The notes under the pieces are model-generated. The model was not told the DNA's origin, did not search any database, and saw only the letters and a program-made list of their open reading frames with translations. A DNA stretch of 23,530 nucleotides from a virus: IMG/VR virus record IMGVR_UViG_3300032282_003060, positions 1-23,530 of that record, one strand, 5' to 3'. Numbering within the stretch: the first letter of the stretch is position 1; each line of letters opens with the position of its first letter. The position numbers and the translations under genes are program-made. This document shows, one piece after another, positions 6,267 through 23,530 of this stretch.

Positions 6267-7109
6267 ATGTACGGGGTCATTGGGTCGGGACAAGTAGCGC
6301 AGCACGTCATTGCCGAACTGCGCCGCCGTAAGGCGCGATTCAAGGTCTACACACGCTCGCTTCAGCCAGACGCTGAGGCGGGCGTTTTTGTGTCCTACGA
6401 TATGGCAAGCCTTGCACAGCAACTTAAGGATGACGACGTCACTGGGGTCATCAATTGTGCCGCACTGAGGGACATCAACCTCTGTGAGAGGGACCAGAGG
6501 GGGGCACTGGTTGCCAACGTCCTCCTCCCAGAGATCATTGGTAACGTGGCCAAGCAGGTCTACATCTCCACCGACTACGTCTTTGACCTCAACGAGGAAG
6601 ACCGACCTCTTAACGAGGAGGCTGTAAGCCGAGGTGGACTCAGTATCTACGGCCAGACAAAGCTTATGGGCGAAGAGAAGACCCTGGAGCGCGGCGGCAT
6701 CGTTGCCCGCATCAGTAGCCCCTGGGGTGTCTACCCGTCCCCAATGAAGCCAAGCTTTGTGGATATGATCACCTCAACAAAGAACAAGATTGACCTCCCG
6801 ACCGACCAGTTCTTCAGCCCAACCTACCTCCCAGATGTGGCGGAGCACTTGGTTGACCTGGCTGGCGCCCAGTCGCGTGGTGTCTACCACCTTGTCAACC
6901 AGGGTGTCACCAGCTGGATGGAGTTTGGCCGCGTGGCCCGACAGATGACGCGGAACAAGGGCCGCATCACTGGCTCCTTCCGCTTTGATCGGACCCGCCC
7001 AAAGTATGGGGCACTCATTAATACGCGGCTCCCGCGCTTTCGCACGTGGGCTGAAGCAATGCAGGAATACATCAGCGGCCCCCGCGCCGAGGAAAGGATC
7101 AAGCGATGA
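6267..7109 (+). CDS. dTDP-4-dehydrorhamnose reductase-like (RmlD-like) extended SDR
   Basis: A 280-residue extended short-chain dehydrogenase. The nucleotide-binding motif is VIGSGQVAQ (residues 4-12), the STDYVFD motif is at 101-107, and the catalytic Y128-x-x-x-K132 lies in YGQTKLMGE, which is the RmlD signature. RmlD reduces dTDP-4-keto-L-rhamnose to dTDP-L-rhamnose with NAD(P)H. The start has AGGAGGG at 6257-6263; the 15 bases CAGGAGGGTCGGATG are identical to those at the glycosyltransferase start. It overlaps the next sugar gene as ATGA. A related 6-deoxysugar reductase remains possible because the usual substrate loop is divergent. Confidence 0.8.
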   Translation: MYGVIGSGQVAQHVIAELRRRKARFKVYTRSLQPDAEAGVFVSYDMASLAQQLKDDDVTGVINCAALRDINLCERDQRGALVANVLLPEIIGNVAKQVYISTDYVFDLNEEDRPLNEEAVSRGGLSIYGQTKLMGEEKTLERGGIVARISSPWGVYPSPMKPSFVDMITSTKNKIDLPTDQFFSPTYLPDVAEHLVDLAGAQSRGVYHLVNQGVTSWMEFGRVARQMTRNKGRITGSFRFDRTRPKYGALINTRLPRFRTWAEAMQEYISGPRAEERIKR

Positions 7110-8062
7110 GAGTACTAGTAGTCGGACACCGTGGCTTCATTGGCCCAATGTTGGTCAAGCACCTCAAGCGCAGCGGGGCAACGGTCCACGGGATTGACGA
7201 GGGCTGGTACGACGAGACCATCAGCGGCCTTGACGGCGAGCACATCCCTCACTCGGAGCGGAATGGGAAGAACTCACGCTTCTCCGACATTGACCCACTC
7301 GGAACATACGATGTGATCGTCTGGCTTGCCGCTGTGAGCAACGACCATATGGGGAACCTAGACGAGTTTGACACCTTCTGGAATAACTATGAGTTGCCGA
7401 AGCTGAAGGCCCAGGACTTCTGGGAGCGGAACCCTAACGGTCGCTTTGTCTACATCTCCTCAGCATCAGTCTACGGCGCAAACGGAGACATTGCCAAGGA
7501 GTCCACGGCAACCGATCCGCTGACGGCCTATTCCAAAAGCAAGGTCAAGATGGATGAGTGGCTCTGGCAGCAGGAACGCTCCTGGGTATCCCTCCGACTT
7601 GGGACGCTCTGGGGTGCGGCCCCCAATATGCGGCGCGACCTTGTGGTCAACGCCTTTACCTGGGAGGCCATCCAGAAGCAGCACATCCACCCGCAGTCAG
7701 CTGCCAGGCGGCCGATCCTCCACGTTGACGACGCTGGCTGGATCATCTCCTTGGCCTGCATTCTCCCAACGGTCCAAGGTATCTACAATGCCTGCGCTGA
7801 GAATGTGACAGTCACTCAGATTGCTGAGCGTGTTGCACTCACCCTCGGCGTTGACGTCTCACCATACGTTGGTGACGACGGCGACAAGCGGGACTACTGG
7901 ATGGACAACGGGCGACTCCTCTACCACTTTGAGATCCGAGATGGGGAGCTGATTAAGACCAGTGACCCACTGGAGATTGAGGAAGTGGAACGGGTTCTCC
8001 ACGACTACGACGGCCAGCTCCGCACACGGACCGAAATCTACAAAGAACAGTTGGAGAAGTGA
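7106..8062 (+). CDS. NAD-dependent sugar epimerase/dehydratase
   Basis: A 318-residue extended SDR. Visible are the NAD-binding GHRGFIG (7-13), LAAVSND (74-80), the ISSASVYG motif (117-124) with the catalytic Ser region, and Y142-x-x-x-K146. This family interconverts or dehydrates nucleotide-linked sugars. The YISSASVYG segment and the C-terminal substrate domain (HVDDAGWIISLACI, then GIYNACAENVTVTQIAERV) fit an epimerase/dehydratase rather than a reductase. It is translationally coupled to the RmlD-like gene upstream (ATGA) and to the nuclease downstream (GTGA). Substrate cannot be named from sequence. Confidence 0.75.
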   Translation: MRVLVVGHRGFIGPMLVKHLKRSGATVHGIDEGWYDETISGLDGEHIPHSERNGKNSRFSDIDPLGTYDVIVWLAAVSNDHMGNLDEFDTFWNNYELPKLKAQDFWERNPNGRFVYISSASVYGANGDIAKESTATDPLTAYSKSKVKMDEWLWQQERSWVSLRLGTLWGAAPNMRRDLVVNAFTWEAIQKQHIHPQSAARRPILHVDDAGWIISLACILPTVQGIYNACAENVTVTQIAERVALTLGVDVSPYVGDDGDKRDYWMDNGRLLYHFEIRDGELIKTSDPLEIEEVERVLHDYDGQLRTRTEIYKEQLEK

Positions 8063-12841: not shown

Positions 12842-12854
12842 ATTTGGAAAAAGA

Positions 12855-12886
12855 AAGGCCTGCCAGCTGGGAGACTGGCAGGCCTT
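12855..12886 (-). terminator. Intrinsic terminator of the minus-strand operon
   Basis: A perfect 12-bp stem (AAGGCCTGCCAG / CTGGCAGGCCTT) with an 8-base loop is followed, on the minus strand, by TTCTTTTTCC. It lies 28 bases after the dnaB stop and should end the long minus-strand transcript. Confidence 0.88.
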
Positions 12887-12913
12887 AGTGTGGGGGTGAG
12901 GCGACCCCCGTAT

Positions 12914-16261: not shown

Positions 16262-16433
16262 GGCGCACCGCGCCGATGTGTGCCACCGCAATGATGGCTG
16301 CACGGCGTACGGCCTCAGCGAGGACGTCGGCGCCAGCGCGGTCAGCCGCCTGGGCCAGCCGCATCAGGGACTGCTGTGAACGTGCAACCTCTTGCGTGAG
16401 GTGCGTCTGTGCTGTCTTCTGATCCCGATTCAT
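16254..16433 (-). CDS. Small alpha-helical protein
   Basis: A 59-residue protein from ATG 16433 with a strong AAGGAGG site 6 bases upstream. It is almost wholly helical and Ala/Arg-rich (QEVARSQQSLMRLAQAADRA, then VLAEAVRRAAIIAVAHIGAV). Family unknown. It is separated from the preceding gene by a strong hairpin rather than a ribozyme. Confidence 0.65.
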   Translation of the reverse strand: MNRDQKTAQTHLTQEVARSQQSLMRLAQAADRAGADVLAEAVRRAAIIAVAHIGAVRRG

Positions 16434-16457
16434 AACAACCTCCTTGATGATAGGGGT

Positions 16458-16480
16458 GGGGTGGCCACAGTGGCCACCCC
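16458..16480 (-). promoter_or_regulatory. Intergenic hairpin in the minus-strand operon
   Basis: GGGGTGGCC and GGCCACCCC form a perfect 9-bp stem around a 5-base loop, in the gap between the genes ending at 16488 and starting at 16433. No T-tract follows on the minus strand, so it is probably an mRNA-stabilising or processing element. It occupies the position that ribozymes occupy in the gaps further upstream in the operon. Confidence 0.5.
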
Positions 16481-16487
16481 TTGATCC

Positions 16488-16679
16488 CTAGAAGTCCTGC
16501 CCTGTGTAGTGGCGGCGGAGGCGACGACTCACCTCATCCGCGATCACTACGGCGAAGACCACGAACCCCGCCGTTGCGAAGAACGTGAGCACCCCTGCGA
16601 AGACGCTCTCCGTCAGCAAGAATGCCGCGATTGATCCAGCCAGCCCAGCCAGCACTGTTGCGAGAAACTCCGTGTTCAT
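16488..16679 (-). CDS. Two-helix membrane protein
   Basis: A 63-residue protein from ATG 16679 with AGGAGGT upstream. Two membrane segments are visible (FLATVLAGLAGSIAAFLL and VFAGVLTFFATAGFVVFAVVI) followed by a basic tail (RRLRRHYTGQ) that would face the cytoplasm. Holin-like in shape; function not established. Its mRNA 5' end would be set by ribozyme 1, which cleaves 63 bases upstream of the start codon. Confidence 0.6.
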   Translation of the reverse strand: MNTEFLATVLAGLAGSIAAFLLTESVFAGVLTFFATAGFVVFAVVIADEVSRRLRRHYTGQDF

Positions 16680-16709
16680 TTCCCATACCTCCTATTGCGC
16701 GAGGTGTCT

Positions 16710-16764
16710 GCCTCATCAGAGTGCGGGATACAACCCCGCACTGACCCCCGAAGGGGTTTCGGCT
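16710..16764 (-). ncRNA. Type II hammerhead ribozyme 1
   Basis: Read on the minus strand: AGCC, then GAA (16760-16758), stem III ACCCC-TTCG-GGGGT (16757-16744), cleavage base C16743, stem I AGTGCGGG / CCCGCACT with a 7-base loop (16742-16720), core CTGATGA (16719-16713), and GGC (16712-16710) pairing with GCC to make the open stem II; UCU and AGA can extend stem II around a bulged A. All invariant hammerhead core bases are present. Predicted cleavage is between 16743 and 16742. It starts inside the stop codon of the gene ending at 16763. Confidence 0.93.
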
Positions 16765-17002
16765 AGAGCGAGAATCCAAAGTCTAGTGCCATTGCCGTAA
16801 GGTCTTCGGCCCTCCAATCGTAGCCAGCAGCCTGGCAGACAGCACGCGCATTGCGGAGTATCTCCAGGGCCTCGTCGGTGGAGTTTGCCGCCGCGAAAAG
16901 ATCCGCGAAGGTCTGGGTGCCAGATCCGTTTGCCTTGATCTGATCCAGGTACCCCAAGACGTCAAAGTCCTGTTGCATCTGCTTGAGTGTCTCCTCGTTC
17001 AC
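16763..17002 (-). CDS. Small helical protein in ribozyme cassette
   Basis: A 79-residue acidic protein from GTG 17002, overlapping the upstream stop as GTGA. It reads as helices (NEETLKQMQQDFDVLGYLDQ, then TDEALEILRNARAVCQAAG) and ends LDFGFSL. Its first half has short similarity in style to acyl-carrier-like or regulator peptides but I recognise no family. Its TAG overlaps the first bases of ribozyme 1. Confidence 0.6.
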   Translation of the reverse strand: MNEETLKQMQQDFDVLGYLDQIKANGSGTQTFADLFAAANSTDEALEILRNARAVCQAAGYDWRAEDLTAMALDFGFSL

Positions 17003-17130
17003 TTTGCACCTCCATCTTCTGCGTTCACTTCCTCATCGTACTTGACCCAGTAGCAGCAGTCTGGGCAGAGGATCATCCCCTTGTGGACCACGTACTCAAT
17101 CGTGGCCAGGTGACATACTTCGCACTTCAC
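16999..17130 (-). CDS. Mini zinc-ribbon protein in ribozyme cassette
   Basis: A 43-residue protein from GTG 17130, with GGGAGG 5-6 bases upstream. It carries CEVC at residues 3-6 and CPDCC about 16 residues later, the knuckles of a zinc ribbon, then an acidic tail. It lies directly after ribozyme 2 and is coupled to the next gene (GTGA), making this the only two-gene cassette in the array. Function unknown. Confidence 0.65.
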   Translation of the reverse strand: MKCEVCHLATIEYVVHKGMILCPDCCYWVKYDEEVNAEDGGAK

Positions 17131-17158
17131 TTGAACCTCCCAGTTCACGAGGTGATCT

Positions 17159-17217
17159 GCCTCATCAGCGCCTGGTAATCAATCCAGGCGGACGGCCCTG
17201 TCACGGCCGTTTCGGCT
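17159..17217 (-). ncRNA. Type II hammerhead ribozyme 2
   Basis: On the minus strand: AGCC, GAA (17213-17211), stem III ACGGCC / GGCCGT with loop GTGACAG (17210-17192), cleavage base C17191, stem I CGCCTGG / CCAGGCG with loop ATTGATTA (17190-17169), core CTGATGA (17168-17162), GGC (17161-17159). Predicted cut: 17191|17190. Its first 28 bases are identical to ribozyme 4. It starts in the stop codon of the gene ending at 17216. Confidence 0.93.
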
Positions 17218-17479
17218 ATCGTCCGATGGTCTCCATTGCTGTGGCCCAGGCGTCAATCCTGGCGGCCTTGAGGTCCAGGCTCTCGGTGGCGACGCCATCT
17301 TCGGCTGTCTCACCTGCACCGTAGATCTCACCCTGGTCGTCAGAGTCCATTCCCTGGATCAGTGCATCCAGGGCCTCCTCTGCGGCCTCCGCAGTGGTGA
17401 CTGCCTCCTGGTATGCGGCCTCTGCCTTGGCTGCGGCTGCCATTGCCGCCTCAAACTTGGTTGCCTTTTCCTTGGTCAC
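17216..17479 (-). CDS. Ala-rich coiled-coil protein in ribozyme cassette
   Basis: An 87-residue protein from GTG 17479 with GGGAGG 5 bases before it. An in-frame ATG at 17512 lies in the ribozyme core and is not used as start here. The first 45 residues form an Ala/Glu-rich helix (KFEAAMAAAAKAEAAYQEAV, then TAEAAEEALDALIQ), followed by an acidic Gly-rich loop and a second helix. Function unknown. Confidence 0.65.
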   Translation of the reverse strand: MTKEKATKFEAAMAAAAKAEAAYQEAVTTAEAAEEALDALIQGMDSDDQGEIYGAGETAEDGVATESLDLKAARIDAWATAMETIGR

Positions 17480-17505
17480 TTTGACCTCCCAGTTTGCGAG
17501 GATCT

Positions 17506-17559
17506 GCCTCATCAGCGTTGGGTAATCAATTCCAACGGACGCCTCACGGCGTTTCGGCT
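17506..17559 (-). ncRNA. Type II hammerhead ribozyme 3
   Basis: On the minus strand: AGCC, GAA (17555-17553), stem III ACGCC-GTGA-GGCGT (17552-17539), cleavage base C17538, stem I CGTTGG / CCAACG with a 10-base loop (17537-17516), core CTGATGA (17515-17509), GGC (17508-17506). Predicted cut: 17538|17537. Stem III has a GTGA tetraloop of GNRA type. The stop TAA of the gene ending at 17559 overlaps its first base. Confidence 0.93.
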
Positions 17560-17876
17560 TATGCGTCTCCCAGTGCGCTCCTGAAGTGTGCGTTCTGGCG
17601 TGCGTTCTCGTCTTCCGCCAGGTCGGCCCCAGCGTTCACGGCCAGGGTGAACTTGTCCAGTGTCTTCTGGCTCTTGACGAAGGCACCCAGGAGGCCCTCC
17701 CCGATGGGGCCTGCTCCGATGTGCTCAAGGTGCTCCCAGGCCTCGTCCAGGTCTGCCTGAGCCTGGGCGAGTACATCGGCCAGGTGTCGTGCGTCTTCGG
17801 CCCCCAGGGCCACCACTGCGTTGCGTACTCGTGCGCTGGTGGCCCTATTGGCCCCAGTCCCATTTGCTCCTCGCAT
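17559..17876 (-). CDS. Hypothetical protein in ribozyme cassette
   Basis: A 105-residue protein from ATG 17876 preceded by CAGGAGGT. An upstream in-frame ATG lies within ribozyme 4's core and was rejected. After a Gly/Asn-rich start (MRGANGTGANRATSARVRNA) the protein is mainly helical and Ala-rich (DARHLADVLAQAQADLDEAW, then TLDKFTLAVNAGADLAEDEN). No family recognised. Confidence 0.65.
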   Translation of the reverse strand: MRGANGTGANRATSARVRNAVVALGAEDARHLADVLAQAQADLDEAWEHLEHIGAGPIGEGLLGAFVKSQKTLDKFTLAVNAGADLAEDENARQNAHFRSALGDA

Positions 17877-17902
17877 TTCAACCTCCTGTGTGTGAGGGAC
17901 CT

Positions 17903-17961
17903 GCCTCATCAGCACCTGGCGGTTAATCCAGGTGGACGGCCCTGTCACGGCCGTTTCGGCT
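17903..17961 (-). ncRNA. Type II hammerhead ribozyme 4
   Basis: On the minus strand: AGCC, GAA (17957-17955), stem III ACGGCC / GGCCGT with loop GTGACAG (17954-17936), cleavage base C17935, stem I CACCTGG / CCAGGTG with loop ATTAACCG (17934-17913), core CTGATGA (17912-17906), GGC (17905-17903). Predicted cut: 17935|17934. Relative to ribozyme 2 a stem I G-C pair is replaced by A-U (17933 with 17914), a compensatory change that supports the fold. Confidence 0.93.
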
Positions 17962-18172
17962 ACTTCGCGCAACTCATCTTCCTGAACTCGCCGCACTCGG
18001 CCAGGGTGTACTCGTCGCCATAGGCGGCGACTACCACGGCCTCGGCTGCCTCAACGGAGTCAACCAGTTCAGCGAAATCCTGCTGCTTCTCCAACTTCTT
18101 GAGGTCGGCGCAGCCAGCCTTGTGAAACTCCCAGCGCGGTCCGCTGTTGTTGCAGACGATTGCGTACTTCAT
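17960..18172 (-). CDS. First gene of the ribozyme operon, hypothetical
   Basis: A 70-residue protein from ATG 18172, with TGGAGG 5-6 bases upstream. It begins MKYAIVCNNSGPRWEFHKAG, a beta strand followed by a short basic loop, then DLKKLEKQQDFAELVDSVEA, and ends with two more cysteines (CGEFRKMSCAK). The first half resembles small proteins such as those with an H-x-x-x-C motif after a strand, often described in phages as unknown. It is the most promoter-proximal gene of the minus-strand operon. Confidence 0.65.
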   Translation of the reverse strand: MKYAIVCNNSGPRWEFHKAGCADLKKLEKQQDFAELVDSVEAAEAVVVAAYGDEYTLAECGEFRKMSCAK

Positions 18173-18191
18173 CTTGCCTCCAGGGCCCTTT

Positions 18192-18266
18192 GCCTCATCA
18201 GCACGGAGCGGGCCCCGACTCCGTGGACGGTGGGCTGCAGGGTTGCCTGTGCACCACCGTTTCGGT
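18192..18266 (-). ncRNA. Type II hammerhead ribozyme 5 (divergent)
   Basis: On the minus strand: CC, GAA (18263-18261), stem III ACGGTGG / CCACCGT (18260-18254 with 18233-18227) with a 20-base loop that contains a further TGCA/TGCA pairing, cleavage base C18226, stem I CACGGAG / CTCCGTG with a 10-base loop (18225-18202), core CTGATGA (18201-18195), GGC. Predicted cut: 18226|18225. Stem II is only two pairs (CC/GG), weaker than in the other copies. It is in the leader of the first gene, not after a stop codon. Confidence 0.82.
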
Positions 18267-18315
18267 GTCGCTTCTTGGTCCGTATTCATCTGTCCAGGTA
18301 CCCCTTGCGGTGGGC

Positions 18316-18375
18316 GGTGACCTTGCCAGCCTCTCTAGCGTTACCCCCTCGTGGGGGGCACTGGTGCTGGTCACC
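18316..18375 (-). promoter_or_regulatory. Structured 5' leader upstream of ribozyme 5
   Basis: GGTGACC (18375-18369 read on the minus strand) pairs with GGTCACC (18322-18316), enclosing a hairpin CCCCC-4 nt-GGGGG (18357-18344). A competing pairing CCAGC / GCTGG is available between 18326-18330 and 18366-18370. It lies between the promoter candidate and ribozyme 5. It might be a protective or regulatory structure; no known riboswitch was recognised. Confidence 0.4.
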
Positions 18376-18400
18376 TGTCGCCCTCTCGGTACAAGAGGAC

Positions 18401-18429
18401 CTTAGCAGGTGCCATTCGTGGGCTGTCAA
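18401..18429 (-). promoter_or_regulatory. Promoter candidate for the ribozyme operon
   Basis: A perfect -35 TTGACA (18429-18424) is followed after 17 bases by GCTAAG (18406-18401), a weak -10 with three of six matches. The 11 bases from the -35 match the strong promoter at 12801 exactly. A weak -10 fits an activator-dependent promoter. Confidence 0.45.
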
Positions 18430-19225
18430 GGACCTATTTTGAGCACGAAGAGGGTGCCTGGTCGGGGCCAGGTTGGGGTCCGTTTGGTTGAGAAATCTCT
18501 GGAGATTTGGGGCCTGGTCGGCCCTGGTCTTGGTTCACGGTGGGCGTCGGGGTAGGCGTAGGAGGCCCGTGGTGTATCCAGCGCGGGCCGTGGAGGCCCC
18601 TTGGCGGCCTGGTGGCTGTCTATGGGCCTCCCTGGCATCTGCGGGGCTCCTGGGGCTCCTGGTGCCAGCGTCGTGCTCAAGGTGGTCTCCCTGGTCTGTG
18701 GTGGCCACTGGCCTGGGTGGGCCTGGACTGGGATGGGTGACGCCCCCTCTCCCCACCCCCCACCACCACCCCATCAGACCTGAGAACCCCTCAGGTATCT
18801 GGTCTGGTCAGCCCATCCATACCTATACTGGGGGGGAGTATCCATCCTTGGCAGGTCAGCAGCCCTAGAGGAGCCTGTATGTGACGGAGCCTCACGTTTT
18901 TTTGCCCCCCTCCCCCCCCAGTAAATCTGTAACAAATCTCCCAGCGTGGAGGAATGCCCCCCCGCGATGAACGACCCCTCTGATAAGGCGCGGGGAAACC
19001 CCCGACAAGAAGGCCTTTTCAGCTGGGGGCCACCTCAAAGAAAGATTAAGGAACCTTAACCTTGTTATTTTCTACATCAGACCCCCATTTTCCTGGTTAT
19101 ATGGGGGAGACACAGAGGGGGCAACGAACCCGACCTCCTAGGATTCGGTCTCACGCTTAATCTGGGTTCGTAATAACCAGCCGCTAGGCTGGTTTAGTGG
19201 GGGGATACCCCTCATAGGAGAAGAA
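18430..19225. other. Non-coding, strand-skewed gap between divergent units
   Basis: No convincing gene is seen in these 796 bases. From 18440 to 18735 the plus strand is GT-rich with many GGCC/CCTGG blocks; a Pro-rich minus-strand frame (18680-18426, TTG start) exists but is weak. From 18740 to 18920 the plus strand is C-rich, with C-tracts whose complement could form G-quadruplexes. Hairpins: ACCTGAG / CTCAGGT (18778-18796), ATACT / AGTAT around G7 (about 18825-18842), GTGA / TCAC followed by T7 (18881-18903, possible plus-strand terminator), CCCCCAT / ATGGGGG (19082-19107), AACCAGC / GCTGGTT (19175-19194) and GGGG-ATA-CCCC (19201-19211), the last next to the next gene's ribosome site. A replication origin or regulatory hub is plausible. 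Confidence 0.5.
19044..19063 (+). promoter_or_regulatory. Operator-like inverted repeat, copy 2
   Basis: GATTAAGGAACCTTAACCTT contains the perfect palindrome TTAAGG-AA-CCTTAA. It differs by one base from the minus-strand copy at 12821-12841. A weak extended -10 (TGGTTATAT, 19094-19102) lies about 30 bases downstream, so this copy may control the plus-strand unit beginning at 19226. Confidence 0.5.
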
Positions 19226-21349: not shown

Positions 21350-23530
21350 ATGGCAACATTTAAGTTCGGGCGAGCAATTGACCTCCACTGGAATGGATAT
21401 GACATCCAGGGCCCAGCGGAGACTGTCTTCTCCATCCCCGACCAGCTCTACGAGGAGTTTGATGCCGACATCGCTCCAGTAGAGCCGACCCTTGTCTGGA
21501 TTGACACCAATGAGTTCAGTACACTTCAGAACTCGGTTGTCACATCAACCATTATTGGGTCATCATATATCTCTGTTGCCTCCACAACTGCTGGTACGCA
21601 GCTCTCCCTTAAGTCTGGGGCAGCAACAAATGGCTATGTACTCACCGCAGACGGTGCTGGCGGGCAGGCATACCAGGCAGCCCCAGGTGGTGCTGGTGCG
21701 CTGTCTGCAGTTATTGGGACATCACCACTTTCTGTAATCACATCTGCTGGAACTGCGACGGTAAGCATTGATTCCTCCATCATTACATCAGAGAATGCTG
21801 CAAGGATGCGGACATATGTACGAAATACCACCGCATCAACTATTGCCAAGGGGTCAGTCGTCTACCTTGATGGATCAAATGGCACTGTCCCATCCATCAA
21901 GAACGCCCTAGCCAACGCAGATGCAACCTCAGCACGTACCTTTGGCATCGTTGAGGCAGACATTGCAACAAACACCAATGGCTACGTCACAAATCAGGGC
22001 CTACTCTCACCGCTAAATACATCTGGAGTTGCTGATGGGGACGTCCTCTGGCTCTCACCTACCGTTGCTGGTGCATTCACCACGACCAAGCCTGCTGGAC
22101 CAAACCACGGTGTCCTCGTCGGCATCGTTGTTAAGGGGACCAGCGTTGGTGCTGGATCTATCTACGTCCTCATCAAGAATGGTGCAGAACTAGACGAGAT
22201 TCACGACGTTAACATCACCTCGCCAGTCACTGGACAGTCCATTATCTGGTCATCTACAGCCTCCGTATGGCAGAATGCCCTCATTGGTAGCGCATCAATC
22301 AGTGCATCTGCCGTCACAAGCGGACATATCTCCACAGGTGCCGTTGGATCTGCTGCACTTGCCGCCAATGCTGTTGTTGCTGCGGCAATCTCTGCTGGTG
22401 CTGTAGGGACTGCCGCACTGGCCACGGGAGCTGTTACTGACGCCAAGATTGCTGCAAACGCAGTGACCAGCGGACACATCCTAGCGGGTGCTGTCGGGAC
22501 GGCTGCTCTAGCCACAGGTGCCGTTACTTCGATTAAGATTGCTGCAGGAGCCGTAGATAGCGCAGCACTAGGCACTGGGGCAGTTACCTCCGCAAAGATC
22601 TCTGCTGGAGCCGTAGATACGGCTGCACTGGGAACAGGCGCTGTGCTTTCAGCAAAAATTGCTGCTGGAGCGGTGGATACCGCTGCACTAGGAACTGCAG
22701 CCGTCATCTCGGCTAAAATTGCCGCATCTGCCGTCACAAGCGGACACATTGCGGCAGGAGCTGTAGGCACTGCTGCACTTGCAACGGGGGCAGTTACAAG
22801 TGCTGCCATTGCGGCCTCCGCCGTCACAAGCGGACACATTGCTGCGGGTGCAGTTGGTACGGCAGCCCTTGCCACAGGAGCAGTCACCACAATTAAGATT
22901 GCAGCAGGGGCTGTAGATTCTGCTGCCCTAGGAACGGGTGCAGTCACCGCAGCAAAGATTGCCGCATCCGCCGTCACGAGTGGACACATCTCCGCCGCAT
23001 CAGTTGGCACGGCTGCAATCTCATCTGGCGCTGCAACATCTGGACAACTACTTCAGGCTAATGGATCTGGTGGAGCAACATTTGCTACAATTACTACTGG
23101 GGTTCAGATATATACTACTGTCCTATCTGGAACTGGAACCTGGCTTGTTCCAACTGGCGTAAAGAGAGTTGAACTATATGTAACTGGAGCTGGTGGCGGT
23201 GGTGCAAGTGGTTCAATTATGGCCAGTCTTGCTACAGTTGCAAATGGTGCTGGAGCAGCTGGTGGCGGTGGTGGCGGATCATCTGGTTACGCATACTTCC
23301 CAGAACTTATTCTTCCAAGCGGATCTACTTCGATTTCCTATTCAGTTGCAACTGGAGGAAATGGTGGTGCAGCAAAAACATATACAGCAGCAGAGGCAGC
23401 AGTAAAGACACTTCAACTACTCTCTGGAAATAATGGATCAGCTGGAAGTGGCGCAACGACGTTTGGATCAATACTTACTGTTGCCGCTGGGTCAGGTGGA
23501 ATTGCTGGCAATGCAGTTACAACTACTACA
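21350..23530 (+). CDS. Repeat-rich tail fibre protein (5' part)
   Basis: An open frame of 727 codons running off the right edge. Residues about 1-140 are a head domain with Trp/Tyr-rich start. About 140-310 match a fibre domain I know from many phages: VRNTTASTIAKGSVVYLDGS, then TSARTFGIVEADIATNTNGY, VTNQGLLSPL, VADGDVLWLSP and the NGAELDEIHDV block. Residues about 315-555 are a 15-residue periodic region (GAVGTAALATGAVTSAKI type). The end (from about 580) is a Gly-rich domain beginning with a TWLVPTGVKRVELYVTGAG motif, common at phage fibre tips. Such proteins recognise the host surface. The 3' 450 bases are visibly more AT-rich. Confidence 0.82.
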   Translation, partial: MATFKFGRAIDLHWNGYDIQGPAETVFSIPDQLYEEFDADIAPVEPTLVWIDTNEFSTLQNSVVTSTIIGSSYISVASTTAGTQLSLKSGAATNGYVLTADGAGGQAYQAAPGGAGALSAVIGTSPLSVITSAGTATVSIDSSIITSENAARMRTYVRNTTASTIAKGSVVYLDGSNGTVPSIKNALANADATSARTFGIVEADIATNTNGYVTNQGLLSPLNTSGVADGDVLWLSPTVAGAFTTTKPAGPNHGVLVGIVVKGTSVGAGSIYVLIKNGAELDEIHDVNITSPVTGQSIIWSSTASVWQNALIGSASISASAVTSGHISTGAVGSAALAANAVVAAAISAGAVGTAALATGAVTDAKIAANAVTSGHILAGAVGTAALATGAVTSIKIAAGAVDSAALGTGAVTSAKISAGAVDTAALGTGAVLSAKIAAGAVDTAALGTAAVISAKIAASAVTSGHIAAGAVGTAALATGAVTSAAIAASAVTSGHIAAGAVGTAALATGAVTTIKIAAGAVDSAALGTGAVTAAKIAASAVTSGHISAASVGTAAISSGAATSGQLLQANGSGGATFATITTGVQIYTTVLSGTGTWLVPTGVKRVELYVTGAGGGGASGSIMASLATVANGAGAAGGGGGGSSGYAYFPELILPSGSTSISYSVATGGNGGAAKTYTAAEAAVKTLQLLSGNNGSAGSGATTFGSILTVAAGSGGIAGNAVTTTT
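22303..23020 (+). repeat. 15-residue periodic repeats in the tail fibre
   Basis: About sixteen degenerate units of 45 bases alternate two types, (S/G)AVTSGHI-A-A-G and GAVGTAALATG-like, with AAKI links. DNA copies such as GCCGTCACAAGCGGACA recur with few changes near 22310, 22730 and 22820. The regular Ala/Gly/Val spacing suggests a trimeric beta-helix or coiled stalk, and the repeats could change number by recombination. Confidence 0.75.

Follow-up and report, generated by a model that had tools for sequence, protein, structure and literature searches.

What is the role of self-cleaving RNAs set between the genes of a phage operon? The window, by which we mean the whole stretch of DNA analysed (23,530 nt of a metagenomic phage, IMG/VR record IMGVR_UViG_3300032282_003060, positions 1-23,530), raises this question, as five same-strand hammerhead copies lie among six genes of a minus-strand operon that is probably an early one. 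The reading considered probable here is that the early transcript is processed into units with standard ends, whereby exchangeable accessory genes are insulated from changing neighbours. How far does the evidence carry it, and which other roles have to be weighed?

Five type II hammerheads on the minus strand

A first-pass annotation proposed five type II hammerheads on the minus strand, and comparison with the Rfam type II model bears this out. All five places match RF02276 (Hammerhead_II) over the whole model (Table 1). Three copies score above the curated cut-off of 37 bits and two fall below it, at 36.3 bits (17498-17559, E 3.8e-4) and 31.6 bits (18187-18267, E 6.7e-3) in the Rfam search; in a single-family search with RF02276, these two have E values of 8.9e-8 (copy 3) and 1.6e-6 (copy 1). 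The core, CUGAUGA ... GAAA ... UH, is present in every copy, and the core pattern with both spacers is matched five times in the window and not once in 100 dinucleotide shuffles. The cleavage positions computed from the stem limits are the same five that had been listed earlier. Judged from these features, the five copies are expected to be self-cleaving.

Stems I and III are closed and stem II is open in all five copies, as was first described. Stem II of the leader copy has only 2 bp (GG/CC); each of the other four copies has 3 bp there (GGC/GCC). The earlier statement that the stem sequences differ between copies holds for stem I, which is different in each of the five, but not for stem III, which is shared by copies 17895-17961 and 17151-17217; these two are 89% identical and have unrelated flanks.

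A published feature of type II hammerheads is the pairing of loop I with the tail in a pseudoknot, and by inspection a pseudoknot of 3-6 bp is found in all five window copies. In copy 1 it is formed by GGGCCC/GGGCCC, with the tail segment beside the ribosome site. Pairs in the window and its relatives include TGATT/GATCA, GATT/GATC, GGGCCC/GGGCCC, GAGCCC/GGGCTC, TGACC/GGTCA and TGGTC/GACCA, a few of the tabulated pairings (e.g. that of copy 5) being chance pairing with stem letters instead. The pseudoknot covaries: at least 4 bp can form in 94% of 95 copies vs 54% when tails are swapped between copies, and none of 2000 shuffles reaches the observed level. Core, stems and pseudoknot are kept with compensatory changes, and the RNA fold is therefore under selection.

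Minimum-energy folding of each copy alone gives the ribozyme fold in three of five cases. Copies 1 and 2 are without stem II, and the lowest-energy fold of copy 2 differs from the ribozyme fold in this type of folding, which ignores pseudoknots; stem II is expected to depend on the tertiary contact. This fold of copy 2, the 2-bp stem II of copy 1 and the scores of copies 1 and 3 below the Rfam cut-off count against the preferred reading of transcript processing.

Table 1. Positions of ribozymes, genes and promoter-like sequences in the window, and of related features in other contigs
Feature	Position	Strand	Remarks
Promoter-like TTGACA (18429-18424) and leader	18268..18429	-	by eye; not called by the consensus promoter scan
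GACAGATGAATA	18294-18283	-	inside the block conserved in all relatives with such a leader; alignment of seven phages
Copy 1, leader type II hammerhead	18187..18267	-	31.6 bits, E 6.7e-3; predicted cleavage after C18226
Gene 1, 70 aa	17960..18172	-	ORF with GGAGG; single-gene unit, sites 1-2
Copy 2, type II hammerhead	17895..17961	-	52.1 bits; adjoins UAG 17962-17960; predicted cleavage after C17935
Gene 2, 105 aa	17559..17876	-	ORF with AGGAGGT; single-gene unit, sites 2-3
Copy 3, type II hammerhead	17498..17559	-	36.3 bits, E 3.8e-4; adjoins UAA; predicted cleavage after C17538
Gene 3, 87 aa, GTG start	17216..17479	-	ORF with GGAGGT; single-gene unit, sites 3-4
Copy 4, type II hammerhead	17151..17217	-	60.7 bits, E 1.6e-10; predicted cleavage after C17191
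Gene 4, 43 aa, GTG start	16999..17130	-	CxxC, zinc-ribbon-like; first of dicistronic unit, sites 4-5
Gene 5, 79 aa	16763..17002	-	ORF; second gene of dicistronic unit, overlaps gene 4
Copy 5, type II hammerhead	16702..16764	-	42.3 bits; predicted cleavage after C16743
Gene 6, 63 aa, hydrophobic	16488..16679	-	first gene past the last ribozyme; conserved operon part begins
Clamped leader hammerheads	L015 1310-1410, L139 5830-5940, L140 4613-4710; L168, L172, L179; independently L175/L192		anti-Shine-Dalgarno pairing
Promoter-like sites	L145 209, 521, 1425, 3180; L132 382, 731, 1492, 3661		hammerhead-less relatives; some 72-91 nt ahead of genes in the same region; TTGACA-N16-18-TANNNT

Other parts of the window hold features of separate interest. 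On the minus strand, a perfect extended promoter (TTGACA-18-TATAAT with TG) comes after a strong terminator (12886-12855) and is followed by a 57-aa cysteine-containing open reading frame (12725-12552); the stretch with promoter and reading frame (12801-12552) is 98% conserved in L126. A weak ftsZ-DE match (12853-12909, minus strand; 30.6 bits vs a cut-off of 72.2) lies on the hairpin that terminates transcription past DnaB and is probably no more than a terminator. On the plus strand, the virion module appears by eye to include a glycosyltransferase-like gene and two sugar-nucleotide epimerase/reductase-like genes (746-2041 and 6267-8062), and a long open reading frame rich in AVTSGHIAAGAVGTAALATGAVT-like repeats (21350-23530) is probably a tail fibre gene.

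Stop codons, ribosome sites and predicted transcript units

Each of the four interior copies extends from the upstream stop codon to a point ahead of the next ribosome site, GGAGG, in agreement with the first-pass annotation. They adjoin UAG in three cases and UAA in one, and the first base of the stop lies 5 or 6 nt before GAAA. Does this placement extend to other phages? With open reading frames of at least 50 codons, and with positions shifted along the same contigs as controls, 90 of 145 copies have a stop codon that begins 5-9 nt ahead of GAAA, vs a control mean of 1.9 and maximum of 7. Open reading frames that end inside the ribozyme do not exceed the controls (13 vs 19.9), and the start codon follows CUGAUGA at a median of about 35 nt. 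From the stop abutment and the start-codon distance it follows that the ribozyme fills the gap between the stop codon and the ribosome site. These abutment statistics are new relative to published clusters; the abutment itself may reflect genome compactness alone. With the stop codon so placed, a ribosome at termination would sit over the 3' strand of stem II, and translation could then affect folding.

How might such an operon transcript be processed? As the polymerase passes, each ribozyme would fold into stems I and III, an open stem II of 2-3 bp and the pseudoknot, and would cut itself after GUC. The predicted units are the leader, genes 1, 2 and 3 each on its own, genes 4 and 5 as a pair, and the remainder from gene 6. 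At the 5'-OH start of each released unit, stem I and the pseudoknot would lie close before the ribosome site of that unit; units up to gene 5 would retain their own stop codon, and the stem III hairpin would form their 3' end a short distance beyond it. Accessory genes would then receive like 5' and 3' ends whatever reads through from upstream, and such insulation is the presumed benefit of the array.

Would cutting by itself open the ribosome site? Predicted ribosome-site access in 135 copies has a median of 0.45 uncut and 0.50 cut, and the interior copies of the window are likewise hardly altered; access that stays nearly unchanged is as expected of an insulator and not of a switch. In the four interior window copies a CCUC in the tail faces GGAGG (16710-16680, 17160-17130, 17510-17480 and 17905-17877, minus strand), which may come from shared ancestry. 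A tail CCUC/GGAGG hairpin as a general part of these elements was considered and rejected, as the longest pairing equals that in shuffled tails (3.11 vs 3.14; 105 copies).

The same anatomy bears on another role, in which cleavage sets differential mRNA stability, and hence protein ratios, through decay rates specific to each unit. The 5'-OH structured start and the stem III end of the products follow directly from the ribozyme architecture, the stems differ between copies, and neither RppH nor RNase E in its 5'-sensing mode acts well on 5'-OH ends. A like end on every unit, however, suits uniformity and not graded rates, and we regard this explanation as possible but doubtful. The first-pass annotation also suggested that stability and relative protein amounts may be tuned in this way.

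Gene exchange around conserved ribozymes

How widespread are such arrays? A pattern scan of viral contigs gave at least 120 matching stretches. When 80 contigs were rescanned with RF02276, 71 had a match, 24 had two or more and eight had four or more, with a maximum of ten, but these contigs were picked by the ribozyme pattern and the counts do not represent prevalence in phages. Arrays larger than that of the window occur in L016 (ten copies), L189 and L082 (nine each) and L008 and L024 (seven each); in L016 some copies are 100% identical although their flanks are unrelated.

Upstream of a related DnaB helicase gene, arrays are present in four of 29 contigs (4, 5, 4 and 2 copies) and absent from the other 25. 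The function of the array is dispensable, because only these four of the contigs with a related DnaB gene carry one. Ten of these 25 hammerhead-less relatives contain no other ribozyme or RNA family at the Rfam gathering score. A search for close phage isolates gave a best DnaB identity of 42%, and window positions 16400-18500 have no DNA match in 50,697 phage records.

The genes flanked by the ribozymes are not constant, as is also the case in published clusters. Genes 1, 2 and 3 have no PHROG or Pfam match, and 126 proteins encoded downstream of ribozymes include no recurrent family. In comparisons with L126, L139, L140 and L144, the between-ribozyme genes of the window are without homologue, gene 5 included, except for gene 4, which is 72% identical to L126 gene 6 and 41% identical to L140 gene 7. 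The genes past the last ribozyme are common to the window and its relatives: gene 6 is 95% identical in L126, 46% in L144 and 41% in L139, and the window DnaB is 96% identical in L126. The genes between ribozymes are thus exchanged.

The ribozymes themselves are found again in other surroundings. Over 82 nt, copy 1 has 93% identity with the L139 leader ribozyme, and copy 5 is 92% identical over 66 nt to an L140 copy with unrelated flanks. There are 37 near-identical pairs (at least 88% identity over most of the length, with flanks no shorter than 90 nt that were compared at the nucleotide and translated levels); neither flank is related in 19 pairs, one flank in six and both in 12. With unrelated flanks on both sides in 19 of the 37, the ribozymes form conserved islands among genes that are exchanged.

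Are the ribozymes, then, mainly islands of DNA homology or spreading elements that aid accessory-gene exchange, with self-cleavage secondary? The 19 pairs with unrelated flanks, seven of which sit within one contig, are in keeping with this, as is the DNA homology between the window and L126, which restarts inside copy 5 and continues for 4 kb at 91%. Yet the compensatory changes that preserve core, stems and pseudoknot argue for selection on the RNA fold, and such selection together with gene turnover yields islands without any role in recombination. We regard this explanation as unlikely.

Leader ribozymes, promoters and known systems

The first ribozyme of the array sits in a leader and is preceded by no gene. 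Shortly upstream of it, a ACAGNUGAAUA / ACAGNTGAATA block is kept in all seven leaders of the lineage, that of the window included; the leader (about 130 nt, with the conserved block at its end) has no Rfam family match. In L015/L126, L139, L140, L168, L172 and L179, the sequence ACCUCC-AA stands directly before the leader hammerhead and can pair over 6-8 bp with the GGAGGU of the first gene, and the leader copy of L175/L192 has an unrelated 9-bp anti-Shine-Dalgarno segment. In six of seven such clamped leaders the site is predicted to become more accessible on cutting (0.01-0.31 before, 0.27-0.65 after); in L168 its access does not rise (0.52 to 0.46). The L140 leader copy retains the clamp and has apparently lost its pseudoknot.

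Could the ribozymes be switches, in which a sequestered ribosome site is released by cleavage so that translation is turned on? The leader copies of the relatives invite the idea, with their 6-9 bp of pairing through an anti-Shine-Dalgarno segment beside stem II and the modelled gain in access in six of seven. However, the leader copy of the window has no such segment (predicted access 0.56 to 0.46), its interior copies hardly change, the tail CCUC facing the ribosome site is no commoner than chance across copies, and once the RNA is cut the 5' piece has yet to come away. Switching is rated improbable. For the clamped leaders in particular, folding models point to a possible cleavage-released translation lock on the ribosome site of the first gene. 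No description of a natural hammerhead with this form was found in the open-access literature. Four pattern matches for clamped leader copies in bacterial genomes were all judged to be chance sequence without ribozyme stems, and anti-Shine-Dalgarno segments upstream of copies in general were not above chance (117 copies).

A more elaborate proposal, which is offered tentatively, combines exchange and lock. Arrays would be plug-in cassettes bounded by ribozyme halves, with stem I and the tail at the 5' end and the stop codon and stem III at the 3' end, such that swaps would leave the mRNA ends unchanged; in this phage group the first ribozyme would in addition be a cleavage-released lock on the first gene, whose ribosome site would be paired in an extended stem II.

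What do relatives without ribozymes have in the same region? Forward promoter-like sites stand mostly 71-94 nt before the genes there, and across all 18 regions a single such site lies on the reverse strand, in a comparison by regular expression (TTGACA-N16-18-TANNNT) over few genomes. In L139, one of these sites (7433) lies directly before the last hammerhead. The two kinds of element may thus stand in for one another, and there is a hint that separate promoters do in ribozyme-less relatives what the ribozymes do in the window.

That neighbouring hammerheads ligate to give circular or spliced RNAs is very improbable: two ribozymes around one gene could in principle circularise it, but Perreault et al. 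sought such products and detected neither (PMC3088659).

The preferred reading, processing into insulated units, has precedents. The operon-array interpretation of the first-pass annotation stands as to identity, strand, cleavage sites and transcript processing, but its claim that an inter-gene array had not been described was wrong. Hammerheads clustered around prophage genes have been reported, with processing of phage transcripts proposed; such clusters cleave in vitro and in Escherichia coli, and for three of them, other than that of the window, cleavage of the native polycistronic RNA was shown (Perreault, 2011; PMC3088659). Hammerheads that flank small non-conserved open reading frames, and their presence in phages, were also noted by De la Pena et al. 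(2017; PMC6155905), who describe the function of these ribozymes in bacteria and phages as open. The kind of array is therefore already known, and the additions made here are the placement and exchange statistics and the clamped leader copies. The A. tumefaciens ardA triple and the A. caulinodans and C. scindens clusters likewise have several copies around small varying genes, whereas in the window, which comes from an uncultured phage, a single operon has five copies, all of type II. The main text of Perreault (2011) contains neither 'stop codon' nor 'Shine', and abutment and ribosome-site pairing are undiscussed there. Structurally, the window copies share with RF02276 the core, the open stem II, the closed stems I and III and the loop I/tail pseudoknot, and differ only by the 2-bp stem II of the leader copy. 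Theta (HDV-like) ribozymes by phage tRNAs are also self-cleaving elements in phage transcripts but belong to another ribozyme class with other partner genes (PMC10879173).

This lineage constitutes a natural experiment, with phages that have arrays and phages that do not, a five-copy operon, and leaders with and without a clamp. A useful comparison is RiboJ, an engineered insulator made of a satellite-RNA hammerhead and a hairpin and set between promoter and ribosome site. Like the window copies, it places a ribozyme directly upstream of a ribosome site, which gives a fixed 5' end; RiboJ sits after a promoter, whereas the window copies sit between genes. If insulation is indeed their role, phages reached a design that was later engineered as RiboJ.
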